From the NCBI GenBank assembly GCA_025738555.1, contig JAOVFP010000004.1, positions 1,054,001-1,118,000 on the forward strand: a stretch of 64,000 bases of DNA. The letters run 5' to 3'. A program made the position numbers and the translations under genes. Below are positions 25,959 to 45,992 of the stretch, one piece after another. The notes beneath the pieces are model-generated. The model ran no database searches and was not told the origin of the DNA. It worked only from the letters and a program-made list of their open reading frames with translations. The DNA comes from Cyathus striatus. Its lineage: Eukaryota > Basidiomycota > Agaricomycetes > Agaricales > Nidulariaceae. Positions within the stretch are counted from its first letter, which is position 1; every line of letters starts with the position of its first letter.

Positions 25959-25969
25959 TAGGCCTAGTG

Positions 25970-28860
25970 TACGGTTGGCGAGATGTCCAAGGTTCGTTTC
26001 AAATGCTCGCTCGCAAACACCCGAACCGACATGTCACGTGACCTATAAACCATACCATATCAGGAAATGTACGTATCCCTGCCGCTAGCCATTGCGCCCG
26101 GTGTGCCGTACCCACCGTTGTGTGTAGCTCCGAAACTTTGTACTTATATCAAATTCATATGTTCTCCCAAATCAATTCGTATATTCTGTGTATATTTAAT
26201 GTACTTTTCACATACTTTCTTTAAATTTAGTGTCCGTTTTATTTTTTCATGCTTTCAGTGTAAGCTACGGGGCTAACATGGCACATTTCCTTATTAGGTA
26301 AGTAGTGGCGGCACACCGTCGGGGTAGTGTTGTTAATGGCTGGCTCACGTGACATAGCGGCTTGAGCTACAAATGTGCAATTTTAAAAACAATGCTTCAT
26401 TCCAGCTTCAAAATATTTGGCTTGAAAATATATATGCAATGTGCTAGATATTTAAGTGATTTAAAATTTTGCTACAAGCCAAGTGTGCACTGAGTAGAAT
26501 GCAAAAACTAACATCAGCTCAATGGCTTGAGCCGATGTCACGCACAAAGTGAGCCGATAGGATATCATCTGTAATTCAGACTCTTATACTTACACAACAG
26601 TATAGAGATGTAAAATAGACCCCTGCCTATAATCTGAATACAAGAAAACGCTTCTGAGAGCTTTGTGGAGATAATGAGAGATAAAATACGACATTGTGAC
26701 AGGTGTGACAGCTCAAGCTGTTAACAACACTACGTCGGGGCTCGCAGAAGTGTGTTATGTAACTCCTTCACTCGGCTCTCCGTGTATGTTGTCTTTAACA
26801 TTAATGTCGGTCCGGGGTTATTTGATTTCTACAACTTTGTCTCAGTACATACATGTATATGTATATGAATAAGTAGAAGCGTTATTTTATGGTCTATAAT
26901 TATCATAGCCATTTACTTAGTTACTTTTGTTCCTTAACTTCCTAATAATAATATGTTTTCGGCTTAGATACTTAGCTGAGCCGAGCTTAGCCGACGCTTA
27001 GCGCATATTCGGTATGCATCATCATCGAATACCTCCCGCCACCTGCCCTTGACCCACCCTTGACCCACCTGCAGCACGGCACGTACCTCCACCAGTGGCA
27101 ACGTGAAGTGACACATCAATGTCAATGAGAGACTTATCACAACAGCATGAAGGCGAGAGCGTACATTGTCTATTAACGGCGACGGTAAAGGGTTATACTT
27201 ATTGTATACATAGATTTATTATTTTAATACATATTATTTAAAATATTTACATTAACTACTTAACTTATGTAAGTTCTGGGTGTCCTTCTTTGGACTCTGG
27301 AGAACTGGGCCTGACGAAAAGGAAAAGAAAAGTTCGGATCTGAACCGGAACTGTGAAGATAACGGAGAGATAAACGGCTGCACCGTCACTTGCTTGGTCT
27401 AGCAGTGGACAGGTATCGTCTTATTGTACAGTGTTTGGCAGCAGCTCCGTGTAAGTAAACATGTGGGAATGTAACACATCAACGTGAAACAGGAACCCTG
27501 AACGCACTCACACCATACCAACACCTTATTTGCTTGTTCTTTGACAATATGTATTCTGTAGATCATCTAAATATACTCCTGTGTTTTAATAAAAAGTATA
27601 GCCAATAAGAATAGCCAACTGTTCACCCACTGCTCTCAGCAGTGGCGTACTACTTTGCCCAAATACCTGTGATTATATGCAAGGGTCACAGGTGATTTAC
27701 TTTCGAAAAGCTCATTAATCTTCTAGATGTTTCGAAAGCATTCAATGGTACACATAGGTAAATTCCCTGAAAGCTATAAAAGTGCGAAGATTGACCAGTC
27801 ATTGGATCCCCAAAACGTTTGTGCTTCTTTCATAGTATGTATCAATTCTATGAGAATGGAAGTGAGTATTTTTTGTTATTAATTCAATCGCCATTTTTCT
27901 AATCTTATATACATTTTGTAGTCGATTATCAGCGCTGGAGCATATTGTTCCTTGTATATTTATCACCTCGTCACTCATTTTAAATTGGTTTAATACTCGC
28001 ACCCAATTACCCACTCTTTGCTGCGTACACATCTCTCTTAATGTTTTATTTATCAAGTAAGTCTCATTATCTTAATCTTGCAAGTCATGAGGGAACTCTT
28101 ATGCATTATTTAAACTATTTGGTCAACTCTTCATCCCTCACTTCATGTTTAGGATTTGATTATAATTGGTTATCTAAACCTTTTATAAAGCCGAATTCTG
28201 CTTCATTTTCTATGATAATATTTGTTCACGGACTCTGCGAAAGCTCGTGCAGTCTCAGTAAGTGTCATACTTTATTACTTAAATACTCTGCAACTAATTT
28301 GGATCGTTCCTACCACTTCTAGAATCAGAATTTCCAAAGAAAAAGCGAAAAACTACCTCCTCCAACTTGAAGCACATCGTAATTAACAATACTAATGATC
28401 ATTCTAGCACCTAAGCCTTTCACATTTATCTACTTCAATAAATTTATTAACGCATTAATTTATACTAATACTTATATAGAGTACTTGTCCATTTACTATA
28501 CATCACAAAGAACTAATTATCACCACATTGCTAAGTATGTGGTCAGCTGTCCAGTCCGTTCAGAGTCCGTTTTATTTGTTTATTATCAACTACAAGACGG
28601 TGTTAGTAAACAAGGTCTTTGTGGCCGGCCATACCATCAGACACTCCGTAGAGCAAGCGGCCTGATAAGACCTGAAACATCAGTTCCCACTCGGAACCGA
28701 ACTTTTCTTTTCCTTTTCATCTATGCCCCTGGAGAACTGGCGGAGGTTCCGCTGCATGATGTGTTTCCTGATATGGTATGGTTTGGGTCACGTGACCTTT
28801 TCGGTTCAGGTGTTTGCGAGCGAGCATTTGAAACGAACCTTGGACATCTCACCAACCGTA
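25970..28860. mobile_element. 2.9-kb element with ~100-bp TIRs and 7-bp target duplication
   Basis: Roughly 100-bp inverted repeats begin TACGGTTGGCGAGATGTCC at the left and the matching reverse complement ends at 28860. They share 'AAGGTTCGTTTCAAATGCTC', 'GCTCGCAAACACC', 'GTCACGTGACC' and 'CCATACCATATCAGGAAA'. CCTAGTG flanks both sides (25963-25969, 28861-28867). The interior is AT-rich with short frames and no recognisable transposase. Its superfamily is unclear. It is inserted at the first bases of the hAT-like element's left end. Confidence 0.85.
26325..26732. mobile_element. 408-bp hAT-type MITE
   Basis: The ends TAGTGTTGTTAA and TTAACAACACTA are perfect inverted repeats, flanked by a perfect 8-bp direct repeat CGTCGGGG (26317-26324, 26733-26740). 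An 8-bp duplication with TAGTG-type ends is characteristic of hAT elements. Repeated GGCTTGAGC/GCTCAAGC motifs near both ends fit subterminal transposase-binding sites. It is non-coding and nested within the 2.9-kb element. Confidence 0.92.
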
Positions 28861-29813
28861 CCTAGTGTTGCTGTGAGGTGAGTTGCCCTCGATGCTGAGG
28901 TACCTCGAGGTGCCCAAAATGGAAATTGTGGCACCTCAAGGTACCTTGGAAACACCGAGGCAAGGTCGGCCTTGAGGTCGAAGATCAAACAGAAACAAGC
29001 AATATTCTGTTACCTGATTGGCTAGGATCATCAATCGGCGCTCAACGTTCAACTTCAACAGGGCTCTAGTGGGATGCATCCAGCTTCAATCACCTCACCG
29101 ATGCAATGTGTTGCGCCTCCGCTACTGGACATTTCCTGTATGCTATGCTGTTCAAGTATATGTTACTAATATATTAGCATTTATAACCAGGGCTGTAGCT
29201 CTTAGTTCACGGTATCACGAAGCACCCGAGCCGCACATGAAAGTACCGACTGTAACTTCTTTGAAATTAACTAGTGGGAAAAGCGATATTAAGTTAAGTG
29301 CTACAGTCATCAACCATTACACGTGACAACAAAACTTGAAGTTGTGATTCCACATTATCTAGTACATATTCTACTATAAAAATTGTACATATGGATAGAT
29401 ACAATCATATAGAATCACTTTGTATATTTTTTACCGTGCTGTGTTTTAGTAGGGAACGAACATTCACAAAATAGTTGAGGGGACTGGATTCTGATCAAAA
29501 CCACGTGGCGTGACAGCCGCTGATGGCAATACAGTTTATTACAAACACTTCAAAATTAAAGATTGCCGAAGTCCGGATCATTAATATAAACAAAACCTCC
29601 TTGTCTCGCAACACTGAGCACTTCAGATTTCTAGTGATATCAGAGAACATAGATGCACTTTACTCATAAAAACATTTTTACAGGTTTAATACATTGAATC
29701 ATAGCTACTTATGCTATAAAACAGTTAAATTAGGTACCTTTATTGAGTAATACATGCCATGTATTTTTTGGAAATCTCATGTTTGGAGTAACTCTCCAAC
29801 TTAATTTATGTGT

Positions 29814-30898
29814 TGTTGAGTCATGCGACGAGAGTAGTTAGTTTATTAAATACTTAGAATGTAAATCCCAAATATAATAATCAACTTTAAATCCCGAGGT
29901 GCGAAGTCAGTAAGTTCGAGGGGCGCAATTGTGTTCAAGTCCAAATTTAGATCAAGTTAAAAATAGACAAGTTAAACTTAGGCTATTTTCGTTCTTGCGT
30001 CAAAGTATTCAAAGTCAAGTTCAGATTTTAATTTGGTATCGCAGTACGTATTTCTCGGTATCAAAACGTCTCGTAACTATATCTGATTCTCGTCTTTACA
30101 CACCCTGTCTATGGGAGGGAAGAATGCCTGGCAGTTCCTGCCATTTCATTCCCCCCTCGCTCATCTATATACATTTACGGACATATCTAGTTACTACTTT
30201 GGTCTATACTAATTACTAATTTATTCCTAGGTTTCTCCGTTGTTCTAGCCCAGTTGTTACTGCAGCCAATTGCATGTGCGTGCGCATGCGTGTCCATGTT
30301 GCGACAGGCACCCATATGGGCGGCGCGTCGATCTATTACCATTTCGGGCGTTGCTTATATCATCAAATGCGTGTGGCGCGTCAGTATCGCAACAAAACGC
30401 CATCGCTGCGTTGCGTACTCGCCCTGCTATCTTTCTCTTCTTCGTGATCTGCGCATGGGTTGCGTGTGGTCTATCGGCGTCATTCCGTGCTTAGCTAATG
30501 CATTGTCTGCATAGCTTTGCTCATATTCTCGTGTTCTGGGCTGGTTCTAGGGTCTGGCTGTCTTCAACTCTGCGCGCATTCTTGGTTGGTCTATGACTCT
30601 GAGGCTTCGTCATAATGAATAGTGGGGTCTCTGTTGGGCTAGCAACTGCAAAATGATGTTGTTATATTGAAAGAAAGTGGTATGTATTTGTTTAAATTGT
30701 TTTAAACCATACTGAGGCGGAGTTTTTATGTTTTTTATAGGTTTATTTGTTTTAAATCCCTTAGTAAATTATGGGAGGCGGCACGGGAACTCAGCCCCTC
30801 CCCGCTGTGTCCTACTCACGCGCTCAGGTGGAAGTTCCATAAATTCGGAACGAGAAAATCGAAATTAAAGTATGTCATTTTATTTTACTAGCATATCA
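29814..30898 (-). repeat. 3' LTR of the Gypsy element (left in the window)
   Basis: 1,085 bp, begins TGTTGAGTCATGCGACG and ends GCATATCA in plus orientation. It differs from the other LTR at 11 positions without indels. On the plus strand it contains an 86-codon open frame (30254-30514) found at equal length in the other two LTR copies. It lies directly upstream of the plus-strand accessory genes and could act as their promoter (inference). Confidence 0.96.
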
Positions 30899-30910
30899 TC
30901 TCCCCCACAC
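30899..30910 (-). other. Polypurine tract
   Basis: On the minus strand GTGTGGGGGAGA directly abuts the 3' LTR, as expected for the plus-strand primer of reverse transcription. Confidence 0.75.
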
Positions 30911-31294
30911 TAACAAATGACTGTCCTCAGTCACATTCTTTTTGCGTCATCAGGTTGTTTCAGACTTTATGTCTTAATACCCTATTCCTCTACCCGCACA
31001 CCGGAACTTTGTGGTGTCGCCATGTGCCTTCACAGATGGGTGTATATCACAAGCCCTTTCTGATCTCTTGGTCTTTTCGGAAAAATTATGCAATCAAGCT
31101 CTACATATCATTTTTGGCCTTATCTCGTACCAACGGCCTCAGCATCTGGTGATATATCACTTATAGAGGTCAAGAGTTTGTGCTGTCCGCAGAATTTTCC
31201 CTCTACTTCGTATTTTGTTCTCCAGCCATACAGTATGTCGGTTTTTATCTCTTTCTGTTATTTCTTTAACTGACTGTCCTGTCGATTTTTAGAC

Positions 31295-32303
31295 ATGACG
31301 TCCACTGGTGTCTCGCTACTCGACCTTCGTGAGGTTATCGACGAGCTTGTAAAGCTCAGCCTTCGCCGCAACCGCCATTCTGACAGTTGTGCTCAGTGCA
31401 TGCGTTCTCGTTCCTCTTGTATCGTTAATCTGGATTTGCCTGGGAGTGCTTGTATTACGTGTACTCGAGTGTCTGTTGTGTGAGAGTGCAGCTTTCGTCT
31501 CGACGATCCATCTCACATCCTCATTGCTGAAATTCCCCGAGGTCAAGTTGACATTCTGGCTTTCAGTACGTCCCTCTTTCTCGTTTTATAGCTTGTCTGC
31601 TTATTTCTTTTCTACAGATCTAGCTGCCCGACTCCCTGTTGTCCTGGAGGCTCAGCGCTCGCTCCAGTTTTTTACAGCCATGGCTAATATCCAAGCTGCG
31701 AAGTACAGCAATTACCTGCTGGACTATGTCTATTCTTTCCGCGAGGCATACCAGAAGCTCGGTGGTATTTCAGGACTTTGCTCTCATGGCATTCTTGCCT
31801 CCAACCTCGATCTCACCGAAATTATCAACATGTTTCGTCTTGCCGACACTGTCAAGAAGGGGCTTATCTCCCCTTCCCAGCTCCTCTCTATGGAGTCTTT
31901 CTTCATTGCCGCAACCAGTGCTGAGATTCAGGCAGCAGGTGTTCCATCCACCGTATTTCGTGCTCAGGCCAAGTTGGGACTTAGCCAGACTCGAGTTCCC
32001 CGTGAATTCTACAAGTCTGTAGCTCAGTACGAATTTGCTTTGCCTCGTCGTCCTGTCGCACATCGTCACAGTGCCATCGATCCCCAACCATTTGTACGTG
32101 TCATTCGTGATATGAGTCTCCCCTTTGGACAGCTTCCTGTGCATGATAGTGGGACTAGGGGACGTGGCTCTAGTGCTCGTCGTGGTGGTCATAATGGGCG
32201 TGGTTCTCATACTCAGCGTGGTGGGCCTCGTTCTCAAGCTACTCATTCGTATTCTTTCAATTCTGATAGTGTACCGTCGCTTGTAACCATTAATGATGAT
32301 TAG
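31295..32303 (+). pseudogene. Antisense accessory gene 1 of the retrotransposon: Zn2Cys6-like, RGG tail
   Basis: Opposite to gag-pol. Exons 31295-31565 and 31618-32303 (intron 52 bp, GTACGT...CTACAG) give 318 codons. The N-terminal part has six cysteines spaced CX2CX6CX10CX2CX8C (31393-31488), with basic residues in the first loop, fitting the Zn2Cys6 DNA-binding cluster consensus. A TGA at 31481-31483 falls between the fifth and sixth Cys; CGA (Arg) by CpG deamination is the likely ancestor. The middle is helix-rich (LPVVLEAQRSLQFFTAMANI, FREAYQKLGGISGL). The tail has RGRGSSARRGG and NGRGSHTQRGG, RGG-type RNA/DNA-binding repeats. It may bind nucleic acid and regulate the element, but no function is proven. 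It may be expressed from the adjoining LTR. Confidence 0.7.
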
Positions 32304-32734
32304 AGTACATAGAGTACACTGTTCTATCGAGTTTTATTCCAATAAATTTCTTATGGCTTAGAAATTTGCATAATGAGTTTGGTCTATGCATATCTATAAT
32401 GTCCATGACTTATTATTATTTTTCACTGTTCAGTTTTTCAAGTTTCAAGTGTCCAAGGCATGTGTTATGCCCTTCCCCCCATCAACGTTGAAATAGCCAT
32501 CCTTGGCTGTCTCTTTTGCATTCTTATCTCGCTTTTTATTTTATTTTTACTCAGTCTTTCCGACCTACAGACTATATGAACATATCCGACATCTTTCCGT
32601 CGTATCTTGGCTCATGTGGGTGCAGTATCACGCCACAATTCGCAATTTATCATTGGCAGATAGAGATTTGGTATATATCCGAAGCCTTTGTGAGTTGTGT
32701 TCTTTAACCACTCCATTGTGCTTACCACTTCTCC

Positions 32735-34074
32735 ATGTCTTCTTCCGTCAAGTCCTATACCAACACCCTGACTTTTGTCAGTGCTTGCCGTGTTCTGCGA
32801 GACCAGGTCGGCGGTCTCCAGAATTGTCTATCTCTTGGTATCGACATCAAGGCACTTAGCCTTGATGGTCCCCCACGGCGAGCTTGTGTGTCATTTTAAT
32901 CGTTTGTTTCTATTCAGTACTCATATCTTATGTTTCAGCGTCGCATCCTGTCTCACCACGAGGCCTTTCCCGATACTTTGAAGGAGGTGGACTTTGTGGA
33001 GGTAATGTTCACTCTGCGCAAACTGTACCACACTCTCGCGGAGAAAGGCGGTGCTGACTATGCTCATCCTGAGCCGTACTACAACACCGTGTTTCGGATT
33101 TGCGCCAACATTCAGCACAAACGTAACAACATTCCTGTTGTTCTTGTTCCCTCTGTTACCGGTATAAAACGACGTGTGAGTGTTTATCTTATTTCAATGT
33201 TTTTATCATGTCCACTAATTTTCTTAATTGTAGCGTGCCAAGATCGTTAAGTCTGCTGAGACTGTTGTTGATAGCGACTCCGACGTCGAGGTGGTTACTG
33301 CCCATGCTCCAGCACCTGCCGTTCCAGTCGTTCCAGCTGCCCCTGTGGTCTCAGTACCTGTCATCACGGTACCAGCTGTCGCTGTACCCGTTACGGATGC
33401 TTCTTTGGTATGACATTCTTTTTCTTTCGCATTTTTCAAGGTTCTCACTTTAAATATTGTTACAGGACTCCACTGATATGTTAGTGGATGATACCGCTGC
33501 ACCCACACCCATTGTAACTCAAGTATGTATGATCTATTTTCGTTTTGGATCTTGTTTTTTCTGACATATCTTTTTTATTTCCTTCTATACAGCCTGCTGC
33601 TGAGGCCCATCCCGAAGCGGTATGTATTCCTTACGAGGCTCTTCCCTGCATCAATTTACACAGCCCATCTTACCGCAAATTTGTGCAGGTTGTGGCAAAG
33701 AAGCGTGTCCATGTAGACTTGACCTTCCCCAGTACGTGTTCTATTTTAATCTATGTCATCTATTTTTGTCTGATGCATATCTTATTTTTACAGAATTTCC
33801 TGATGTCCGTATGTGGGCAATGAATGTTATCAACTCTGTTGAAGGGCGTCGCTTCCCCGACAAGCCGGGACAGTCTCTTAGCTTCCGGGAGGCCGTTATT
33901 GCTCAACGGTCTGCTGATTTGCTCGCTGCGGCTACTAAAATCGAGCAATATGTTGTTGCTACAAAGAGCATGATGTTCGAATTGGACAAGATGTCAGCTG
34001 CTTCCACAACTGTAATTGTACTTCTTTTATCATTTTCGCTTTTTCTGATTTCTACTTTCTTATTCTAGTTGTAA
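32735..34074 (+). CDS. Antisense accessory gene 2 of the retrotransposon, seven exons, unknown function
   Basis: Exons 32735-32887, 32939-33175, 33234-33407, 33466-33522, 33593-33731, 33794-34011 and 34069-34074 join in frame to 327 residues, with no stop. Every intron is GT-AG (51-70 bp). The ATG is the first in the frame (MSSSVKSYTNTLTFV). The N-terminal half is helix-rich (VEVMFTLRKLYHTLAEKGG, YYNTVFRICANIQHKRNNIP). The centre is an Ala/Pro/Val linker (APAVPVVPAAPVVSVPV). The C-terminal half contains LPCINLHSPSYRKFVQVVAK, FPDVRMWAMNVINSVEGRRF and a final helix (AAATKIEQYVVATKSMMFEL). No known domain is recognised. It runs tail-to-tail with pol (stop at 34211), 136 bp apart. Unlike pol it has kept its frame, notable given the CpG decay around it. 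Confidence 0.78.
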
Positions 34075-34210
34075 TTTCTTATTCTTTGTTGTTTCTGATG
34101 ATGTAGTGCTCCTAGCTATAATTATTCCTTACATACTTCGCTTTTTTCTATGTTCTGTAGATAGAAACTTTGTATGTTTATAGCTTTTAAGTATCTGAAT
34201 TTCCGTCACA

Positions 34211-37200
34211 TTATTCCTTGTCTGAGTCCGAGTTGTTATCTAAGTCTTCTTGAGTATTATCTAACTCATTTTCTGAATCACTTAGAGTGTCAACTTCAAT
34301 TTCTTTTCTAAGTCTTACACTTTTAAACATAAGATCTTCTATGTCATTTCGCATTTCTTCTTCTGGTTCTTCTTCTGCAAGCATATCCCATAAGCCTTGT
34401 TCAGATAAATCAATAACTTCTTGAACAGAGTCTGGTAGAGGTATACTTTTACGAGCATAATAAGGTATTACTCTTACTCTGGCTATTTTTCGATGCAATA
34501 CTACACCATTAAGTTCACAGAGTACATAACTACCTCCTTGTGCTCGTGCAACTACAACATATGGACCGTTGTATCTATATCTACCCTTCTGATTTGACAT
34601 TTTACCTATGTTGGGACTTCGTACTAATACTAAGTCACCTTTGTCAAATATCCATTCTCATACTTTGTGTTCTACTTCTTTTTCCATTGCTTCAAGACGG
34701 TGTATCTTTTCTTCAGTTACTCGTTCACGCATAAGTTCAACATGGTGTACATGTTTAGCTAATGCTTGTGCTCGTCTTGCAATTAAATCTGCAGTTGGCA
34801 TAATTCCTGATGGAGGTTCCACAAGCCAAGTTGCTTCTTTAAGATCAAATGGTAGTACCGGGTGGGCACCTGTAACCATAAAATAAGGAGAACATCCTAA
34901 ACGCTTCTGTGGAGTTATACAGTCTGCCCATAGAACATGATGCAAGAAGTAATACCACTTATTAAGATTGTTCTTGCCACATGTTTTCATCAACATTGTT
35001 CTTAAGTCCCAGTGTGGACGTTCAATAATACCGTTTGCTCTGGAATTGTATGGTGAGATTGAGATCGCTTTGATAGAGTATTTATTTTCAACCCATTTCA
35101 TTGCTTTCAGGAATGGTGTGCCATTGTCTGTCACAATCTTTTGTATACAACCCCATCAACAAATAATATCTTCAAATAACCATTGTCCAATAGATCTCGC
35201 ATTTTCTACTCGTAATGCCTTAGCTTCTGGCCAAGATGAAAGAGCACATCATCCATGCACAATACACTTGCAACCATTTGAAGCAAATTCTTCCCCCATA
35301 TGCAGTGTATCAACATGTAGAGTCTGGAACAATGACGGAGTTTCAGTTAACACGGGAGGTGTTTCAAACAACATCCATTGTCACTTCTGACACTCTTCAC
35401 AAGTCTTCACATACCACTCTACATCCATGTCCAATTGTGGCCACCAAAATCTTGTTGACATCAGTTTGGTTGTAGCATAAGCACCACGATGCCCAAGAGC
35501 ATCATGTGCTGAGTGAAGCATGTACATTCGGTATGGTTTTTCAACATAGAGTTTATGTTCACCATTCTCTCCTTTCAGATATAATTTCCCATCATCCAGG
35601 AAGTACTTCTTTGCAAATCGTCTAAATGTCTTAAACTGTGTTGGAGTGTAACCAGCTGGTGTGACACTTGTATCTTTCAGCCAATCTTTTAGCAATTGCA
35701 GTTTTTCATCTCTGATGCGACTTGCTTCTAGACGGTGTTCTTCTGGGTAAGGTCCAATGTACTCTGGTTCAGGGAGTACTTGTTTTACTGTTGTAAACTG
35801 ACAGAGGTATTGCTTAACTTGTTCAGGACAATTTTCATTGTTGACTATGTTACGCTTTACTTCTAGTTCAACTTGATACTGTTCTCTAGCTTCCTTAAGT
35901 TCATCATTTATGTCTAATGGAGACTCTGCAATTAGGAAACCAGTTCGGGTATCAATCTCTTCATAAAATTCCTCTAATGGAAGAGGATCAGGATCATTCA
36001 TGAATTTCTTTTCAAGGATATATGGTTGCTCATCATCCTCAGATTCATCTGTAAACTTCCAATCTGTCTGATCACCAGTAGCAAACTTCCTTCGAGACAA
36101 CCCATCAGGTCCAAATATCTTTCCAGCTTTATGTACAAGCTTAAAGAAGAAATTTGTTCGGATAAAGTCAACCCAACGGTTTGTAGTTGCATTTGGCATA
36201 TTCCCAGGATTGTTCAGCATACCAAACAAGTATTTCGCATCTGTTTCTATGACTAAGTTTCTACATCCAAATAGAAGATACTGTTCTTCTTCTAATACCA
36301 TGTGCAGTCCTAACAGTTCACACTTCGGTTGGGAATATTGTGATTGCCGTTCAGACAATGTTTTGGAACCAAATTTCACATAGTAGATTTTAGATGGATT
36401 TTCTTCATCTCTTTGGTAAATTAACCACCCAGTAGCAATATATGATGTGTCTACTGCTACAACTAAGGGTTGTTTACTTTCATAGTTTGGGTTGCAAATT
36501 GGCAAGTTATTTTTAACTGCTCGTTTCAAGAGGACCATTGATTCTTGTTCTTTCTCACCCCAATGGAACTCAACATTTTTCTTCAGTAGGTTGTACAGAG
36601 GTGCAGCTAAATCAACAAACTTAGGAATATTTTGTCTTGCTTGGACCACTGTTCCCAGGAATGCTCTAACATCACTAAAGTCCTCACAGGGTCCCCAATT
36701 TGTTACAGAGTTAATTGTTTTAGCAGTTGGTCTACGTCCTTTGTGAGAGCACATGTGCCCAACTACTTCAAATTCATCTGCACACAGTATTGACTTCTTC
36801 CCTGAGAAGGTTCCACCTGAATACTTCATTCACTGTAGAATTTGGTTCACATTTTGGAAGTGCTCCCAAACAAATCGTCTGATTCCAGAGTTTTCTTTGA
36901 TTGTTTCATAACCTCCATCTTCTAACTCATACCGGGTAGCTGGACCTCTCAATGGACAATCGTCAATATAAGGTTTAGTGTATTCCGGTACTTCATCTTG
37001 CAAAATGTAAGTTACATCATCATGGAAAATTGGAACTGAGTTTGTCCAACCCATAGGCAAAGTTACTAATCTAAGTGCTCCAAAGGGAGTTTGGAATGTG
37101 GTCAAGTCCCTTGAGCTCTCTGCTAGTATTCGTTCATCATATCCAACATACAAGTCCAAAATCCCACCACATGCTCTTCCTGCAAAGTGATTCGCTAGCT

Positions 37201-38053
37201 CTTCAGTTGCTGGTGGTAATCCTGAGTGAGCAATAGTCACCCGGTTCAATGGTTCAAGACTATGCACTAATCGTAAACTTTTACCATCTTTTTTCACAAC
37301 ACAAAACCACTTTGATCGGTAGGATGCATTAGATGGTTCATATACTCCATTATCAATTTTTGACTTGATAATTCTGCAAACTTCTTCACGGAGTGCTAAT
37401 GGAATAGGAATATTTCTTTCTACCCAAGGTATATGAGGTATTACTGGGATTTGTACTGGTGGGAAGAATTCTTCTTTGAATTTCCCATGCTCTGTATCAT
37501 CCCAAGCGAAAGCTTCTTCCTGTTCTCTTATCATCCAGTGCATCAGTTTACGTTCTTCATTCCATAAGAAGTCCTGTCCATGGACTTTATCCATTTCATC
37601 TTTTCGTTCATCTGTGTATCTCTTAGTTGGAACAAAGTCTGGTGGCTTTACAGGTAACTCTGGCATATTCTCTAAAGGATTTCCCTTTATTTCATGCTTT
37701 ATGTAATACTCTTGGGGCACATCAGCTAACACTGGTCTAACTTTCTGAGCTACAGGCTTATATTTCTTTCCAGCCAAACACACTCTCACTGTGTTGTCTG
37801 TTTTTATACTGCCAAGTTCATCAGTTGTTCCTTGTGTCAAACTTAAAAAGAATGCCTCCATTTTCTGATCCTCAAGCTGTCCGTCTCTTGCCTGTTCCAT
37901 CATATATGCACATTGCAAGTCCTGTACTGTTAACATCGGTTTATCATCTTTCATATACATTCTGTCCATCTTTAATTCATTTTGTCCATATGACATAATT
38001 AGCACTGCCTCTCCTTGATCAGGGATCAAATCATCGATTAATGAAAATTCTGA
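34211..38053 (-). pseudogene. pol: Gypsy pol: reverse transcriptase, RNase H, integrase (five TGA stops)
   Basis: One continuous frame from about 38053 to the stop at 34211, interrupted only by TGA at 36830-36832, 35381-35383, 35249-35251, 35156-35158 and 34658-34660, each where Arg is expected. RT: SRDLTTFQTPFGALRLVTLP, then MGWTNS and the YIDD catalytic box. RNase H: VVAVDTSYIATGW, KCELLGL, ETDAKYL, GPDGLSRR give the D-E-D-D set. Integrase: HSAHDALGHRG plus CEEC (HHCC zinc finger), then HVDT, TDNG and GIIERPHW as the D-D-E triad. The tail (about 130 residues) is acidic, and no chromodomain is visible. As it stands the enzyme cannot be made in full. It belongs to the agaricomycete Gypsy type with an RT start like PVPxIPWVERNIPI. 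Confidence 0.93.
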
Positions 38054-39286
38054 CTGTCTTCAGTGACAATCTTCATCTTCCCTCTCTCATGTGTAGGGAT
38101 GGTTATTTTCTCAAACGTGTTTGGATCTGTTACAGTCACATATTGACCTCCATCTAATTCATTCTGAATACTGCTTGCCATTAAGCAGTCAAATGGATGT
38201 CCTAGCAATAATTCATATGGTGGATTTTCCAGAACATGTATTTGGAGGTACATAGTCACTCCAGCTATTTTGAAAGGTACATTTCGTGCAAGTCCCAATG
38301 TCATCTCATATTCTCCATTTGCACTCTGCATTTTTATTTTCACAGAGGGATCAAATGAAATGGCACAAGTCTCTGCAACCTTTTTACTCATAGTGATGAT
38401 CTGTGAACCGCTGTCCAACAGTGCTTCTTTTTCTACCTGTCCATTCACAAGTCCTTTTATAGCACGTAAAGACTCTGATTCTCTAGCAGTGCACACAAGT
38501 TCAGTGGCTTGCCGCTTGTCTGCAGTTTTATTGTGAAAGTACTGAACAGCTAAGTCACTTAACTGCCAACCCCATCCTGATTCCATTTCTTTGCCTTGTT
38601 TGTTTTTGTTGAAAGGTCTACGTTTTGGATCATCCAATTTTAACTGACTTAGCAATATAGTTCTCAGTTTTGGTTGACTTGGTATAGGTGGAGCATCATC
38701 ATTATCCACTTCCTCCATATGTACTGTTCTGATTGGTACCACACTCTGTTTTGTTTTATTTTCTTCTACACGGCTAACTTCAACTTCTATATGCCTACTT
38801 GTTGTAGCATTTTGTACCTCTGCCCTTGCAGCTGGTGATACTGCTAACAACTCTCAGTTTGTCAAAGTTATTTCTGCCTGCATTATTTTCTCAACAACAT
38901 CTGAAACATTCACATTCTGCTCAACTGGTGCCACATTGTGGTGTGGTTTTCTGTCTAACTCATCTAGTCTGATAGGTAGATGGCCGGGTGCCATCTCCAA
39001 TGGTGTTACATGTTTAAAAGGACATTCAGGAAATGGTAACATAATTTTTTCTAAGTTTTTCTGATTATCTAATTTTGTAGAGTCTTTTTCATTTTTCTTA
39101 TTTTGTACTTTTCTTTTATTTAACATAGGCACAGAAACGCCTTCATGAATATTGGAAACAGATTCTATCACATCAGGTATATTGTGCTGTGCACTTTTTG
39201 GCCTAAGTTCTTCCTCTGGAGTACCAGCGGCTACTGGTTGTGGTACTGGGTTGGGTGTTCGGTGCCGCTCCTTCCTTGGACTTGTT
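38038..39286 (-). pseudogene. Gypsy protease region in the -1 frame between gag and pol
   Basis: The frame opens across the gag stop and runs to the TAA at 38038. One in-frame TGA at 38854-38856 precedes ELLAVSPAARAEV, where related elements have Arg. The retropepsin core has LLDSGSQI (DSG rather than DTG active-site triplet) followed by the YELLLGHPF flap-end box typical of Gypsy proteases, which cleave the Gag-Pol polyprotein. It is reached from gag by -1 slippage and left for pol by another -1 step; both sites are U-rich. Confidence 0.85.
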
Positions 39287-41072
39287 AAAAATCCAAGTTA
39301 GGATTGGTTTCTTTACCCCCCCTTGTCTGCAAGTACTGTTCATTACTTCCTTGCCTCTGTGAAGGTACACTCCATCCTTGTCTTTCAAACCATCCAGAGT
39401 ACTGCTGCATCTGTTGTAACAAATGTGCTGGTGGTTCCATTCCACCCCCTGTATTCTGCAGAAGTGTCACTTTCCCTTCTGGCTGCACTTGTTGAATTTC
39501 AGATTCTTTCATCTGCATTATTCTTTCAACTTCTCGTCTAAGTGGTCCATCACGTTTAAAGACTGACATTCCACTTGCTCCCATCACAATTCTACCATTT
39601 GACAATTCTTTTATCAAACTGTCTTGCAAGTCTTTTGCTCGCACTCTGCAATTTCGTAGTCCATCAGTACAATTCCCACAATAGTGACAATCACAGTTCA
39701 TGCCATGTCCTCCATATCCTCCTGTCCCTGAGTTTACTGGGTTCCGGAATTGATATGTTGTGTTCTGTGGTGGTCCCCAATTATTTACAGGGGGCCGGTA
39801 CTGATTACTTTGTGCTTGCACAAGTGCTGTCTGACTCTGCAACAAAGTTCTCATCTCATTCCGTAAACTTTCAATCTCTTTTTGCACTTTGTCATAGCTG
39901 TCTTTACTACTTCCAGCAAGTGCACTCTCCATTACTTCCTTCTTGATTATACTTCCAGACTTCCCACCAATCTCTGTGTACAAATTTGCAATTCCTCCTA
40001 TTGGTGCTGTGTCCATCAATTTGTCCACTGCTGCTACAACTTCTTTCAGAGTATAGGGGTCCTCTCTCAGTCTTTTCTTTGGTGAAGTTTCATCTGATAC
40101 AACTTTAGAGTCCATGAATCGCAAGTGTGTATTCAATTTTTCTCTAAAGTCTTCTGTAAATACACTACCAAGAGTGTTCACCAGGAAACAGTTTGTAAAC
40201 AAACTATTTTTCTCTGGCTCTGCACCCTTTTCAGCTTCATCTACAAATGCTCTTTTAAACTCTTTCCATTCACGGAAATCACCATCACCAATAAGTCTTT
40301 GCTTTCTGGCCATTCTCTCTAACTTTGATGCAGATCCATACTCTTCCCCTTCATCTGGATCATATTCTGTCAAAAGTCTTTGCCTAAATTTTTCCCAGCT
40401 ATCAGCTTTGGACTCAGCAAATTTTTCTACTATTTCTGCCACTTCGTACTTCTCAATACATCCCACTGCATGTCTCACTCGCTTCTTTCCTCCTATCTCC
40501 CCATAATGTTCATAGAGCATCTCCAACTGTCTTAGCCAATCTTTTAATCGTCTACCATCTCCATTCCACTGTGGACTATCACGACTTGTTGGTGGAGGGA
40601 TTCCCTTTGCCATTTCGTCTTCTGAGTCACTATCTGAAGGTGGTGCAGGTGGTGGAGTCTGTGGTCTTTCTGGGGGTCCAAATACTGGTAGAGGATTTAT
40701 TTCCTCTTCTCTTTCTCTATCTGATAAGTCTGCCAGAGTGATCTGACTTAAAGTATTTGCTAATGCTTGTATAACTTCTGATCCATCAGAATCCTCACTT
40801 AATAATTCAGGTGGTGGACTTGGTATTGAAAAAGCACCAGGAATATAATATTGATCCACTGTACTTGTCTCAATTTCTGTCTCAACTATAGGTCTCTGTA
40901 TCTCAGGTTCTCCTTCTAAGTTACTTGTTGACTGTGTTACAAGTTCTGTAGAAGTGCCTTCAATTTGATTCCTATTTTTATTGACTCTTTTTCTGACAGG
41001 TAGCTCTAAAACTTCAAATCCTGCTTTCTGCGAAGTGCGGGATGTTCGTTTACATGCTTTATCACTAGCCAC
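39285..41072 (-). CDS. gag: Gypsy gag polyprotein, 595 residues
   Basis: Intact frame from ATG 41072 to TAA 39285-39287. Acidic, Pro-rich N-terminal third (PPERPQTPPPAPPSDSDSED). Capsid-like retrotrans_gag region with WLRQLEMLYEHYGEIGGKKR and WEKFRQRLLTEY; a coiled-coil-prone stretch KVQKEIESLRNEMRTLLQSQ. Then a zinc-knuckle-like CHYCGNCTDGLRNC, where the usual CX2CX4HX4C His is Asp (GAT instead of CAT), followed by the conserved IVMGASGMSVF stretch seen in mushroom Gypsy gag. It forms the virus-like particle and packages element RNA. The missing knuckle His may weaken packaging in this copy. Confidence 0.9.
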   Translation of the reverse strand: MASDKACKRTSRTSQKAGFEVLELPVRKRVNKNRNQIEGTSTELVTQSTSNLEGEPEIQRPIVETEIETSTVDQYYIPGAFSIPSPPPELLSEDSDGSEVIQALANTLSQITLADLSDREREEEINPLPVFGPPERPQTPPPAPPSDSDSEDEMAKGIPPPTSRDSPQWNGDGRRLKDWLRQLEMLYEHYGEIGGKKRVRHAVGCIEKYEVAEIVEKFAESKADSWEKFRQRLLTEYDPDEGEEYGSASKLERMARKQRLIGDGDFREWKEFKRAFVDEAEKGAEPEKNSLFTNCFLVNTLGSVFTEDFREKLNTHLRFMDSKVVSDETSPKKRLREDPYTLKEVVAAVDKLMDTAPIGGIANLYTEIGGKSGSIIKKEVMESALAGSSKDSYDKVQKEIESLRNEMRTLLQSQTALVQAQSNQYRPPVNNWGPPQNTTYQFRNPVNSGTGGYGGHGMNCDCHYCGNCTDGLRNCRVRAKDLQDSLIKELSNGRIVMGASGMSVFKRDGPLRREVERIMQMKESEIQQVQPEGKVTLLQNTGGGMEPPAHLLQQMQQYSGWFERQGWSVPSQRQGSNEQYLQTRGGKETNPNLDF

Positions 41073-41187
41073 AATGACTTAGTAATTTAATCTGATTTTT
41101 CCGTGATTTTTCAACGGTTTTTCGATTTTTTATTTCGAAGTTATTGTCTTTTTATAAAATGTCTTTGTCTGGAATTGAACCCTCACC

Positions 41188-41205
41188 CCCTCGCAGTGGG
41201 CTCCA
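41188..41205 (-). other. Primer binding site of the Gypsy element
   Basis: Three bases inside the 5' LTR the minus strand reads TGGAGCCCACTGCGAGG, which begins with the TGG complementary to a tRNA CCA end. A little further on GGGTTCAATTCC resembles a tRNA T-loop. The tRNA species was not identified. Confidence 0.7.
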
Positions 41206-41207
41206 AA

Positions 41208-42292
41208 TGTTGAGTCACACGACGAGAGTAGTTAGTTTATTAAATACTTAGAATGTAAATCCCAAATATAATAATCAACTTTAAATCCCGAGGTGCGAAG
41301 TCAGTAAGTTCGAGGGGCGCAATTGTGTTCAAGTCCAAATTTAGATCAAGTTAAAAATAGACAAGTTAAACTTAGGCTATTTTCGTTCTTGCGTCAAAGT
41401 ATTCAAAGTCAAGTTCAGATTTTAATTTGGTATCGCAGTACGTATTTCTCGGTATCAAAACGTCTCGTAACTATATCTGATTCTCATCTTTACACACCCT
41501 GTCTATGGGAGGGAAGAATGCCTGGCAGTTCCTGCCGTTTCATTCCCCCCTCGCTCATCTATATACATTTACGGACATATCTAGTTACTACTTTGGTCTA
41601 TACTAATTACTAATTTATTCCTAGGTTTCTCCGTTGTTCTAGCCCAGTTGTTACTGCAGCCAATTGCATGTGCGTGCGCATGTGTGTCCATGTTGCGACG
41701 GGCACCCATATGGGCGGCGCGTCGATCTATTACCATTTCGGGCGTTGCTTATATCATCAAATGCGCGTGGCGCATCAGTATCGCAACAAAACGCCATCGC
41801 TGCGTTGCGTACTCGCCCTGCTATCTTTCTCTTCTTCGTGATCTGCGCATGGGTTGCGCGTGGTCTATCGGCGTCATTCCGTGCTTAGCTAATGCATTGT
41901 CTGCATAGCTTTGCTCATATTCTCGTGTTCTGGGCTGGTTCTAGGGTCTGGCTGTCTTCAACTCTGCGCGCATTCTTGGTTGGTCTATGACTCTGAGGCT
42001 TCGTCATAATGAATAGTGGGGTCTCTGTTGGGCTAGCAACTGCAAAATGATGTTGTTATATTGAAAGAAAGTGGTATGTATTTGTTTAAATTGTTTTAAA
42101 CCATACTGAGGCGGAGTTTTTATGTTTTTTATAGGTTTATTTGTTTTAAATCCCTTAGTAAATTATGGGAGGCGGCACGGGAACTCAGCCCCTCCCCGCT
42201 GTGTCCTACTCACGCGCTCAGGTGGAAGTTCCATAAATTCGGAACGAGAAAATCGAAATTAAAGTACGTCATTTTATTTTACTAGCGTATCA
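41208..42292 (-). repeat. 5' LTR of the Gypsy element (right in the window)
   Basis: 1,085 bp, TGTTGAGTCACACGACG to GCGTATCA in plus orientation, followed by the target duplication GTGT at 42293-42296 (partner at 29810-29813). In gag orientation it provides the promoter for the genomic RNA. An 86-codon plus-strand frame lies at 41648-41908. Confidence 0.96.
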
Positions 42293-42510
42293 GTGTCATA
42301 TATCTATTTCAATATATATCTGTAAAAATACTGTTGGAACTCATTACTGGGATACTAGGCCTAAAAATACAAAAAGAATTGTAGTGATAGCCATAGATTT
42401 GACGTTAGGAGAAGTCAATCAGTTGGGTTTGTCACGTAGGGTGGTGTGTCACGTTGGGTGGTTGATGACTGTACATATAAAAAGAGAATTGTCGTTTAGA
42501 TTCCGACACG

Positions 42511-42699
42511 ATGGAAAAACTGCAAATTCTGAAGTACTTAACACGCTCTCAACGTCTCAATTTCACAGAAGGTCTTTTGGCCACCGCAGCTGAATGTGCT
42601 ACAGTGATAGACCTTGACTCTTCCATTATAAAGGATATGATTGTTAGCGGGGAGATTGATGCTTTGGAATCACTTATAGATGGGTCTAATAACATGTAA
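42511..42699 (+). CDS. Small ORF (62 residues) in the right arm of the hAT-like element
   Basis: ATG 42511 to TAA 42697-42699, with protein-like composition (MEKLQILKYLTRSQRLNFTE at the start, acidic C-terminal half). A TATAAAAA lies about 35 bases upstream, and two 'gtcacgt.gggtgg' direct repeats lie before that. It may be the last part of a gene whose 5' exons were separated by the Gypsy insertion, or a short host-derived gene. Domain not recognised. Confidence 0.35.
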   Translation: MEKLQILKYLTRSQRLNFTEGLLATAAECATVIDLDSSIIKDMIVSGEIDALESLIDGSNNM

Positions 42700-42925
42700 T
42701 TAATTAGAACCTCAAGATATGATCTTCCTTCGAACTAAAATCAATTTATTGTTTGTACCCAACCAGTAAAACCGAAACCACAGTGATGAGAAGATTATGT
42801 CATATATTACAAATGCAGTGCATAAAAATCGAGGTGCCTTGGTTATACCTTGAGGCACCTCGAGGTCAATTAGCCGAGACCTTGGATAAACTCGGAACCA
42901 ACTCACAGCAACACTAGAGTTAGGA

Positions 42926-43323
42926 CATGGTGGAAGTTAGTCCCGCACACACGCAGCGCGCGCAAACGAGCAAGATGCCGGAAAGTTCAAACTCGGCTGA
43001 GCTCAAGCGCTCATATGTGCCCATCAGCAATAAGTAGCGCTCCTGCCCGGGCCGCTGTTTTGAACAACAACTTCCCTTTCATCAGCATTAATTTAATTTC
43101 AAGCTCCAACAAGTTTAAGTAGTTTGGGCGGTTCAACTAGTAAACCACAAAGAAAAAACTCACAGTTAATACGAAATCTGTAGGGGCAGAAATATCAAAT
43201 ATTGTTGTCATTCGTTGAGAGCTTGTCTGAGGCTCCTCATCAACGAATCTTTGGTGTAGTCCAATCACCTTTAAGCATGCAAGCACAATAACAATCTGCG
43301 AATTGAATTATTCAGGGTATATA
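42926..43323. other. Spacer, possible extra 3' coding of NACHT gene 3
   Basis: The minus strand contains a coding-like stretch (GLHQRFVDEEPQTSSQRMTT) around 43150-43270 ending at a GTGAGT donor. Phases do not join cleanly to the last exon of NACHT gene 3, so I left it out of that gene. The rest shows nothing. Confidence 0.3.
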
Positions 43324-45992
43324 CTAACCTGCACTATAGTTGTTTTGTTTTTGTATATATTTAAGTAGATATGTGAAGTCGTCGTCGTCATATGATGCAT
43401 ATAAATGCAAATAGGAAACTTTGACCGAAAAGTTGGCTGATAACTCCAGTTGTTCAGCTAATTCCTTCTCATTCAACAGATTATCTTTATTTGGTTGTAC
43501 AGCATTTTTATCATCAGGTTTGTATTCCTGAGATTTAAATGATCGCTGGTGTATAGTTACAAAATATTCACGATCGAATAAATAAGTCACGAACCTCGTA
43601 ATAGTTCTGAATGAGGCAGCCCATCAAGGCCTTTATTTCATAACGAGTTGGCCATGTACCATCCATCATGTGTTCAGCCACCCAACCGGCGAATGCTGCA
43701 TCTTCTGATTCGAATATTGGTTCAATTTTCTCAACGTATTTCCACTTTTGAAGAATAGTGGTAGCTGCTTCATTCGATATTGGCATGTGGCGGAAATTTT
43801 CATAAAACAATGCCAAGACTTCCCTACAAATTGTTAAAATGAATAGTGGAAAAGTAAGACTCTAACTGACCATTCAAACATGCTGCCATTTATAATATCT
43901 AGCAGTAGACATACTAATTGACACTGTACATCCACAGGAATATCATAGATGTAACCATTGGCTTCCATTAAGTCTATGAACCACCATGACATAGGTCCAC
44001 TGTACAATATATCAGCCATAATTTTGTTCTTCTGAGTGTTCAATGTGTTCTTCAAAATGATTTCCATAGCAATATATAACTTGCTATTGCTTGATAGTGA
44101 TGTCTTTAGAAGGTAGTATAACATGCATATATCACCTTACAAATATTGCTGCACTTGTTGAAGGACTTCGGTATCAACTACATCTCTAATATGCATTTTA
44201 GAGTCTATCTGAATATAGAAGATATATTAGTTTCTTCATAGGAAAAAATTGGAACAGTACTTTCTCTTTTGTCAATATCCTCAACCATGTGGCCTAGTGC
44301 AGACTGACATTTCAATAAAGGGATTGATTTGATGTTTGAATTATATTTTTGAATAGCATTTTCTATTTCACTGTCACATTTTAATAGGCCTTGATCACAA
44401 ATGAAGGCCAAAACACTATCATTGCATTTACTGGAATTGAAGTGACAATAGCAGCACCCTAAAGAGTATGTGTAAACAATGTCTGGAAGACCTTAGAATA
44501 GCTTGATTCAATGGTGATCAATTAAAAACTTGGATAATTCTCTCACCTAATGGTGTATTCATAATATGATTAAAGCAATGCAACGAAAAACGAGCATGTG
44601 CTTCATGTTCATTGATATGAAATTCATGAGAGCGAGAAACATCTTGAAGAAAATCATCCAATGACGCATGGTAAAACTGAATTCCAGTTCTTTCAATATC
44701 ATTAAGATCAATAATTGAATGAAGATCAGCAAGGAGTAGCAAGCATTCATTTTCAAGTGAAAGAAATGCATCCAGATATTGAGCAGACATCAATATTCTT
44801 TCTCCAGAAACAGGAATGTGTCCCCTATTTAAGAACATGATTGCTTCAAGCACTAATGCCACCTTTTTGTAGTTTTCACAGACTGAAAGAATAGTGGAAT
44901 ATAATGCATCAAGCTGAGAAAATGGGTTTTCACCATTTGCTGGATTAATATTGAGAATTACATCCAATTGCTTGAGAGGATTGCGTCGCAAATCTGAAAC
45001 ATAATGAAGTACAGTAGATGCATATATGAACTGTCCAGAAGATTTCTTAATGATAAGATCAATATCTTCATCACCAGGCCAAGATACAGGGAGCATTGAA
45101 CCTAATGTGTGTTCACATTTGAGAGCCTGAAAATTACTTCGAAGATATAGCTCTATATCTTTGTCTGGATCAAAAGTATCATCAAGAGCCAGTCGAGTGC
45201 AAGATGAGGCAATGCTTTCCATATTGAATGCATGCCGAATTTCTACTTCAGGCCGGCTGACTAGCAGGAACCGGAGAAAAGAAGCACTATCAATTAATGA
45301 TAATGATTTGGCAATAGCTTCTATAATTTCTGCTTGATCTTTTCTGGTTTGACATTCATCCAACCCATCAATTATGACAAGCCTGGGTGTAGAGCATTCA
45401 GAATTCACTAGTTTGAATGGTTCGACAACCAATGCCTGCATTTGAACCCTAATATTAGTCTTGAATATATTGGGATTTTTCTCAATATTTTTGATGATGT
45501 GCTCTTTCATGGCGGGAACTGAAACACAAAGCTGATATGCGATTGTCGCGACAAGACCATCCTTTTTGTTTTGTCCAGACCCAAATCTGGAGAAAAAGAA
45601 ACTAGCTGCTAGCTTCCCTTCATTGTAGCATTCTTCTGCAGTAGTCTGAGCAATGGCAGACTTCCCAGCTCCGGCTGGTCCATATAACCACATAATTTTT
45701 GTAGATTCATTATCACTATTGACCCAACTCATAATGTTGCTTAGTACAGCTTTACGAGTTTCAGGATGGCACTTTGGTGCATCATAGCGTTCACCGGCAT
45801 CGTGTGAAGCTTCCGGAACCGTTTGTTGCTGGAGAATTTTAAATCCTACTTAATATTGGATGGTTAGAAATATCTTAAGTGATAGAGACTTAGACTCTAG
45901 AATCGTGAATCACCGTTATCTACATATGTTCTCATCTCTGTCTGTGTCAGACTGTTGATAATGAAATGACTTGCTTGATCAAATGAGTGCAT
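43324..45992 (-). pseudogene. NACHT-domain protein 3, one internal TAA
   Basis: Six exons fit in frame: 45914-45992, 44547-45845, 44261-44491, 43871-44204, 43595-43823, 43324-43545 (797 codons). Start MHSFDQASHFIIN matches genes 1 and 4. Walker A is GPAGAGKS, Walker B LVIIDGLDEC, and the NACHT end is HASLDDFLQD and AHARFSLHCF. The C-terminal unknown domain shows WFIDLMEANGYI. A TAA at 44137-44139 interrupts exon 4 where gene 4 has CAA in the same context (.AAGGTGATATA), so the product would lack the unknown C-terminal domain and tail. An alternative is a GTAAGG donor at that spot, but the coding homology continues straight through, which argues for a nonsense change. The 3' end may extend further. 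Closest to gene 4. Confidence 0.85.

Follow-up and report, generated by a model that had tools for sequence, protein, structure and literature searches.

The 64,000-nucleotide stretch of the Cyathus striatus genome analysed here (assembly GCA_025738555.1, contig JAOVFP010000004.1, positions 1,054,001 to 1,118,000 of the forward strand; hereafter the window) carries a Gypsy-type long terminal repeat (LTR) retrotransposon of 12.5 kb at 29814-42292, in which two plus-strand genes, gene1 and gene2, occupy the 3.3 kb from the end of pol to the 3' LTR and run antisense to gag-pol. An earlier note, made from the sequence alone, had claimed an LTR retrotransposon with an antisense gene pair and, in those plus-strand genes between pol and the 3' LTR, one and six GT-AG introns; all of this is seen in the window, where paired LTRs, a gtgt target-site duplication and a minus-strand gag-pro-pol accompany the two genes. 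As we set out below, the gene pair belongs to a family of related elements, and it may serve them as a regulatory cassette for control of the element or of its host. The two genes are composed as follows.

31233..31292, plus strand: putative 5' untranslated region (UTR) intron of gene1, GTATGT..TTTTAG; a similar intron occurs in other copies
31295..31565, plus strand: gene1 exon 1, Zn2Cys6-like CX2CX6CX10CX2CX8C; in-frame TGA at 31481-31483 within the cysteine cluster
31566..31617, plus strand: gene1 intron, phase 1; GT-AG in 10/10 aligned copies
31618..32303, plus strand: gene1 exon 2, with a conserved region (helical prediction, low confidence) and an RGG-type tail that ends in SVPSLVT
32735..32885, plus strand: gene2 exon 1 (family donor), frameshifted in the window copy; the earlier note's donor ends the exon at 32887
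32939..33175, plus strand: gene2 exon 2, from copy alignment
33234..33407, plus strand: gene2 exon 3, acidic DSDSDVEVV stretch, from copy alignment
33466..33522, plus strand: gene2 exon 4, from copy alignment
33593..33731, plus strand: gene2 exon 5, RPEAVxIPYEALPxIDLxSPSY block, from copy alignment
33794..34011, plus strand: gene2 exon 6; codon-position pattern 10:4:43 between copies C4c and C2a
34012..34068, plus strand: putative gene2 intron 6 (or open hydrophobic tail); C4c/C2a pattern 5:3:3
34069..34074, plus strand: gene2 exon 7, TTGTAA with stop, read from sequence

Structure of the element and its antisense genes

Gene1 (31295-32303 as a whole) has two coding exons and a product of 296-319 amino acids (aa), which in the main family ends in the RGG tail. 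The alignment behind its model holds 10 copies, including the window copy (W) and C11a as the tenth, and the aligned intron is 184 nt long in C16a against 52-56 in the others. Upstream of the coding sequence, a GTATGT...AG intron ends 0-2 bases 5' of the ATG in six of nine copies (W, C14a, C17a, C4b, C5a, C18a), so that gene1 probably has a 5'-UTR intron as well; under the same donor rule it is absent from C4c, C2a and C11a, the remainder of the nine copies examined.

Gene2 (32735-34074) follows a six-intron family model, with GT-AG ends in the window, drawn from an alignment of 10 copies that includes W and C19a as the tenth. By hand count, introns 1-5 start with GT in 47 of 50 cases and end with AG in 50 of 50, the non-GT donors being those of intron 1 in C17a and C4b and of intron 4 in C5a. 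Exon 1 is in frame in eight of the nine non-window copies, C16a having a frameshift of its own, and the gene is open up to intron 6 in six of ten (C4c, C2a, C5a, C4b, C17a, C14a), two of which, C4b and C17a, are without GT at donor 1. The 327 stop-free gene2 codons claimed in the earlier note do exist as a reading, but because gene2 exon 1 is frameshifted in the window they require a donor two bases 3' of the family donor, and the frame is restored by chance. With this frameshift, and with gene1 broken by its in-frame TGA, the window copy is not intact.

A true intron at 34012-34068 is the favoured, though not proven, reading of the last gene2 segment. A C-terminal transmembrane tail in its place was rejected, since the 5:3:3 spread of C4c/C2a substitutions is not codon-like and gene2 of two distant families ends here. 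What had spoken for a tail is that the segment measures 57 or 63 nt in nine of ten copies (56 in C14a) and is mostly open; the annotated C. striatus protein P0003 has, by reading, a different end with the same intron 6 acceptor. Counting against an intron, synonymous divergence (dS) exceeds nonsynonymous divergence (dN) in this segment for the pairs C4c/C5a, C5a/C18a and C5a/C19a, at few sites.

The remaining parts of the element are these.

29810..29813, no strand: target-site duplication gtgt, left; same letters at 42293-42296
29814..30898, minus strand: 3' LTR (relative to gag-pol), 99% identity over 1085 bp to 41208-42292
30899..30908, minus strand: putative polypurine tract, minus-strand gtgggggaga, adjoining the 3' LTR, read from sequence
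34211..38059, minus strand: reverse transcriptase (RT), RNase H and integrase region with several stops or frame breaks; RT_RNaseH PF17917, 2.3e-12; Integrase_H2C2 PF17921, 1.3e-16
38038..39297, minus strand: protease region, split by a stop in the window copy; gag-asp_proteas PF13975, 7.6e-11
39288..41078, minus strand: gag-like open reading frame (ORF) of 597 aa, open; named by position, no Pfam match above cut-off
41208..42292, minus strand: 5' LTR, pairs with 29814-30898
42293..42296, no strand: target-site duplication gtgt, right, read from sequence

The LTRs are 1085 bp each and 99% identical, with TG..CA ends, and the 5' LTR is followed by a tgg-containing stretch, a candidate primer-binding site. 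Gag-pro-pol extends on the minus strand from about 41078 down to 34211, with several stops or frame breaks, and PF13975, PF17917 and PF17921 stand in sequence along the element in the order protease, RT, RNase H, integrase. The RT ORF of the window copy gave no Pfam match, and RT was called from a YIDD motif, by eye, together with its position. Related copies are better preserved: the 597-aa gag-like ORF is likewise open in C4c, C2a and C8a, while in C4c the protease region is one 419-aa ORF and the RT-RNase H-integrase region one of 1283 aa. An Rfam scan of window positions 29000-43000 and a tRNA scan of the whole window both came back empty.

Copies, selection and shared introns

The genome searched is one assembly of 107 Mb in 24 contigs. 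The RT search scored the best 102 of 606 candidates and the LTR search the best 40 of 402, so copy counts are lower bounds; merging reduced 105 listed RT rows to 101 RT elements. An integrase family search (best 150 of 765 candidates) was dominated by other Gypsy copies. DNA searches and BLAST annotation recovered the same module arrangement in C14a, C17a, C4b, C4c, C2a, C5a, C18a, C16a and C19a, the last with only a remnant of gene1.

Cassette proteins were sought with three gene1-type and two gene2-type queries (E up to 0.01), giving 252 exon-level matches, a figure in which overlapping matches by different queries are counted separately and related copies are not independent. A listed family RT lies within 12 kb of 195 of these, and all 195 are downstream of the RT and antisense to it; the other 57, in 18 loci, have no listed RT within that distance. 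At least one cassette gene was matched in 43 of the 101 listed related-RT elements, and both genes in 26 of the 43. By RT identity, at least one gene was matched in 10/13 listed elements at 83-100%, 12/25 at 67-82%, 21/41 at 55-66% and 0/22 below 55%, and both genes in 10 of the 13 whose RT is at least 83% identical. Since the matches follow these identity bands, the cassette marks a clade. The 58 listed elements without a match include cases of weak search and three close copies without gene bodies. The cassette is a family property, and its capture by a single copy is ruled out; we reject a single captured host fragment on the uniform antisense, downstream position of the RT-linked matches and their spread over 43 elements. 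The earlier note's proposal therefore holds up in this genome, in that homologues are present in other Gypsy copies, antisense and on the side between pol and the 3' LTR, and are not confined to host loci.

This tally bears on two further explanations. A host gene pair, transduced once and kept for host reasons, would account for an intron-rich structure typical of host genes and for the 18 loci without a listed family RT, some of them gene1-like without a gene2 match. It is nevertheless quite improbable: the 43 listed elements carry the genes on one side and in one orientation, the orphan locus on C21 is itself repeated (5 loci at 93-97%), and a protein search beyond the genome (about 5.8 billion sequences, word-based sensitivity, candidates in part capped at 8000) gave seven homologues among the matches listed, all from Cyathus striatus. 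The least probable explanation that we weighed is a separate transposon nested within the Gypsy element, as a compact block of two genes with their own introns might suggest, because no repeat pair of at least 30 bases bounds the block in the window and its place and orientation are the same in divergent families.

A gene1-like gene, made up of a Zn2Cys6-like exon and a second one, also stands in a separate repeat, at L043 (C21:410300-412300), C1:493864, C17:1096902, C3:441062 and C6:4908956. These five loci, including the query, are 93-97% identical, with more distant ones at C2 and C19; the group has no listed RT within 12 kb and is perhaps a non-autonomous element or another family, with gene1 and without gene2. 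Within it, L043:1230-1615 (about 385 bp, inverted ends) resembles a miniature inverted-repeat transposable element and matches C11:1201489, C4:5101423, C6:4452390 and C7:824773. In an element on C9 (L040 reverse strand, about 1402-2829), further antisense ORFs with no clear gene1 or gene2 match lie between the gene2 piece and pol, and the antisense cargo may vary between lineages.

Selection was measured with stop codons and gapped codons removed and with gene1 taken only over its first 238 codons, as its tail does not align. C4c and C2a are recent insertions, with LTR pairs 99.83% and 99.92% identical, respectively. Between them, gene1 differs 26:17:85 at codon positions 1:2:3 (dN/dS 0.10, bootstrap 0.06-0.16) and gene2 30:14:68 (0.18, 0.12-0.27, with putative intron 6 counted as codons), the latter ratio being 0.15 over the 319 codons before that intron. 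Control values from the remaining five frames are 0.26-2.62 (gene1) and 0.33-2.51 (gene2), the lowest coming from the reverse frame with coinciding third positions, and the gag and pol ORFs give 0.06-0.20. Seven further pairs per gene fall at 0.08-0.14, rough values with dS often above 1, except that gene1 of C4c/C5a is saturated at synonymous sites and yields no dN/dS. By these substitution patterns both antisense genes are under purifying selection, at ratios of about 0.1-0.18 between copies and not near 1, the value that the earlier note had named as telling against its proposal. Chance ORFs are rejected by the frame-controlled dN/dS and the orientation tally. The same ratios, higher in the other five frames, together with the kept intron positions, make it very improbable that the ORFs are incidental and the antisense RNA is itself the product, through double-stranded RNA, small interfering RNA or transcriptional interference, although such roles are proposed for plant elements in the available text of PMC7264820.

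Intron positions were compared by spliced alignment to the C4c protein in four families (C4c, C7, C4:5.0-Mb and C12), the C12 gene2 protein being only 23-28% identical to those of the others. Two gene2 introns recur in 4/4 families modelled: intron 1, which follows residue 50 in phase 0, and intron 5, which follows residue 248 in phase 1. Intron 2 is phase 0 in 4/4, at residues 129, 129, 132 and 143. The middle introns lie in a low-complexity linker, and their positions are not the same in every family; for gene2 of the C4:5.0-Mb family, the final intron call is probably spurious. In three families, two of them distant, gene1 has its intron in phase 1, following residue 90 or 91. Positions common to such divergent families support the earlier note's argument that introns antisense to the genomic RNA escape splicing from it, so that spliced genes can persist in this orientation. 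For Penelope-like elements, an antisense-template argument for intron retention is set out in PMC3846280, in the text available, and by that argument the old introns found here would be explained by their being antisense to the genomic RNA. The abstract of PMC3846280 describes Penelope-like elements as unlike all other retrotransposon types in dispersing intron-containing genes; if transcription confirms splicing, the C. striatus family looks like an LTR-element counter-example to such Penelope-only dispersal.

Elsewhere in the window, a further LTR of the same family lies at 62551-63653 on the minus strand (C4:1116551-1117653; 86% identical) and is either solo or another copy's. Inverted repeats at 25969-26029 and 28801-28861 (61 nt, 97% complementary, 2.77 kb apart) may be the two ends of a DNA transposon that neighbours the element. 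A 443-aa ORF at 44518-45849, minus strand, has a P-loop GPAGAGKS and apparently more exons nearby, and by eye reads as a NACHT-type NTPase; direct repeats spaced 490-500 bp apart lie at window positions 47308-48000.

Possible roles of the cassette

We read the gene pair as an antisense, spliced, trans-acting nuclear two-gene regulatory cassette of a Gypsy clade, lying between pol and the 3' LTR, and we give this reading about even odds (roughly 0.5). The cassette would be transcribed towards pol from a promoter that lies within the 3' LTR or next to it, and its introns would be spliced from this antisense transcript while going unrecognised in the gag-pol genomic RNA, so that they would pass intact through reverse transcription. 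Gene1, Zn2Cys6-like and with an RGG tail, would bind nucleic acid, probably LTR DNA, with the acidic, Ser/Asp-rich gene2 product as its partner. The two would act in trans in the nucleus and set the LTR-driven expression of the family, as HBZ/APH proteins do for human T-cell leukaemia virus (HTLV) proviruses.

The cysteine pattern of gene1 speaks for this reading. A scan of 725,630 six-frame residues, from the window and selected genomic loci, found the six-cysteine pattern in 21 matches at 14 distinct loci, each of them a gene1; a stop falls inside the match in the window copy, C14a and C17a. The spacing is CX2CX6CX8CX2CX7C in the C12 family and the C21 group. The observed CX2CX6CX8-12CX2CX7-8C fits the general formula of Zn2Cys6 domains. 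Compared with the Gal4-type domain (PF00172), the spacing thus fits while a profile match is lacking, and in gene1 the cluster precedes a conserved region of unrelated sequence, with the RGG tail after it in the main family; 'Zn2Cys6-like' is accordingly a statement about a pattern. The conserved region of gene1 is probably helical, by a weak model of the C. striatus homologue P0001. In gene2, the DSDSDVEVV-type acidic stretch resembles SUMO-interacting motifs. Sub-threshold Pfam matches were EF-hand_8 at E 0.15 (gene1), SAC9_C at 0.12 (a C. striatus gene1 homologue) and BKRF4 at 0.1 (a C12-family protein). Profile comparison of protein A3 with the C12-family protein gave a probability of 0.2%; the C12-family link came from the upstream cysteine exon and a further protein search.

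The RGG-rich tail could also point to an accessory role with RNA or particles, in which gene1 aids export or packaging of the genomic RNA in the manner of Rev or a nucleocapsid. There is precedent for a retrotransposon export factor in Cer1 CERV (PMC10309623, in the text available). Such a role is unlikely, as the cysteine spacing is of the binuclear Zn2Cys6 type at all 14 loci found and not CCHC, and the RGG tail has no alignment in distant families.

The history of the copies argues for a trans-acting regulator tied to its LTR. Pairs among W, C4c, C2a and C14b are 93-99% identical in nearly all 400-column gag-pol windows, and at this resolution identity drops near both gag-pol ends; it falls to 49-94% where W or C14b is one of the pair, and for C4c/C2a to 76-98%. 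Gag-pol is about 96% identical between copies with much more diverged LTRs and antisense genes. For C4c/C2a, dS is 0.08-0.14 in gag-pol as against 0.81 in gene1 and 0.33 in gene2, from which it would follow that LTR and cassette share an older history; gene2 of this pair is a mosaic, with exons 1-2 99% identical and exon 6 76%. LTR and cassette thus appear to behave as a module, with a recent gag-pol common to lineages whose LTR and cassette are more diverged. The LTRs of the family are themselves mosaic, the first 363 bp of the C14b LTR being 97% identical to the window LTR and the next few hundred bases about 50-70%.

Three copies, C8a, C14b and C11b, share a 96-97% core and retain no more of the cassette than the beginning of gene1 and the last part of gene2. 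All three gag-pol ORFs are open in C8a, whose LTRs are 98.3% identical, and the C14b LTRs are 99.8% identical. Young or open copies of this kind indicate that the cassette is not needed in cis, as expected of a trans-acting factor. A fuller picture, which we think somewhat less likely than not, is of an exchangeable, long-lived spliced module that would travel with the LTR that it reads, gag-pol being exchanged from lineage to lineage; elements without the module would live off the proteins of others, and the antisense orientation would be what permits multi-intron genes.

The copies also differ in CpG content. Observed/expected CpG in the antisense region is 0.98-0.99 in the young C4c and C2a, 0.68-0.86 in five others and 0.05-0.07 in the old C18a (L017/L018) and C16a (L019/L020), a near-total loss that is a sign of cytosine methylation and deamination. 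This suggests that cytosine methylation acts on the element family, and it is conceivable that the same two proteins form an anti-silencing cassette, whose target at the element would be host chromatin or DNA methylation and not its transcription factors, much as VANC proteins are anti-silencing factors of VANDAL elements. The protein-level constraint on the cassette and its divergence together with the LTR would suit this role too. We consider it doubtful, albeit the strongest of the rivals: the searches turned up neither a motif nor a homologue of any known anti-silencing protein, and the CpG signal suggests only that decay driven by methylation takes place, not that the cassette counters it.

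Several observations weigh against a trans-acting regulatory cassette. Gene1 is open in only two of ten aligned copies (C4c, C5a) and is frameshifted even in the young C2a. The annotated C. striatus gene1 proteins P0001 and P0002 begin after the cysteine exon, and P0001 is modelled poorly in structure (mean pLDDT 47). Neither gene has a Pfam match above cut-off, and the cassette proteins have no PDB sequence match up to E 1; PF00172 was not listed for C4c gene1 at E up to 1, or for the C7-family protein and C5a exon 1 at E up to 10, although weak matches are discarded by the filters of HMMER. Among the 66 listed elements with RT identity of 55-82%, 33 have no cassette match, a figure that overstates absence, as searches miss diverged copies and C9a, scored 'none', holds a recognisable gene2 piece. 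Finally, the co-divergence of LTR and cassette may reflect only their physical adjacency, and that three copies have lost both genes would also be expected if the genes were simply dispensable.

Relation to known systems

Antisense ORFs between pol and the 3' LTR are established in plant LTR elements (PMC7264820, PMC11963269, both in the text available), and in Retand an antisense TRP28 ORF occurs in 97% of clusters (PMC11963269, same text). The Cyathus genes resemble these in place, orientation and conservation through a lineage, and the plant products have been proposed, in those texts, to be nuclear or DNA-binding regulators. The plant aORF-3R class is antisense, lies from pol to the 3' LTR and is kept in most copies; the cassette has this place and orientation and is found in 10/13 close listed elements (43/101 overall). 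Unlike in Retand, the host is a fungus and neither protein matches PF04195 (TRP28) or any other Pfam family above cut-off, and unlike the plant ORFs there are two genes, with 1 + 6 coding introns and two intron places conserved across families. The word 'intron' is absent from the main text of both plant papers, PMC11963269 and PMC7264820, the latter of which, in its available text, urges a search for antisense and spliced transcripts.

Among fungi, an additional antisense gene, brtn, is reported in the Boty-like Gypsy elements of Botrytis cinerea (Zhao et al. 2011, Virology); the likeness is that of an extra antisense gene in a fungal Gypsy element, and the host of Boty is an ascomycete. In HTLV-1 to -4, HBZ/APH are antisense genes expressed from the 3' LTR through spliced mRNA and encode nuclear regulators, several of which suppress transcription driven by the 5' LTR (PMC10186651, text available). 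The Cyathus pair would be alike in being antisense beside the 3' LTR with conserved predicted splice sites. HBZ, according to the same text, is a bZIP protein whose splicing alters the 5' end of the coding sequence, whereas in the Cyathus genes several introns must go to make protein, and the cassette proteins have no bZIP match in a Pfam profile search. Like the Penelope-like elements of PMC3846280, in its available text, the family is a retroelement that disperses intron-containing coding sequence; the cases described there, unlike ours, are Penelope elements and trans-mobilised host genes.

In the open-access literature, judged by titles and abstract openings, we found no LTR retrotransposon for which a pair of antisense genes with several introns is described, which is a weak negative. 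The kind is known, as antisense accessory genes of LTR elements, and the two-gene, multi-intron form may be new. By the usual view, Penelope elements are the only retrotransposons able to keep multi-intron genes, and the C. striatus family looks like a clear natural example in which such coding genes have been kept by an LTR element over a long span of evolution. Cassette-plus and cassette-minus copies with near-identical gag-pol coexist in one genome, making cis and trans roles directly testable. The family suggests that antisense accessory genes beside the 3' LTR arose in a mushroom-forming fungus, besides plants and deltaretroviruses, and their recurrence points to a common need, perhaps the control of LTR transcription.

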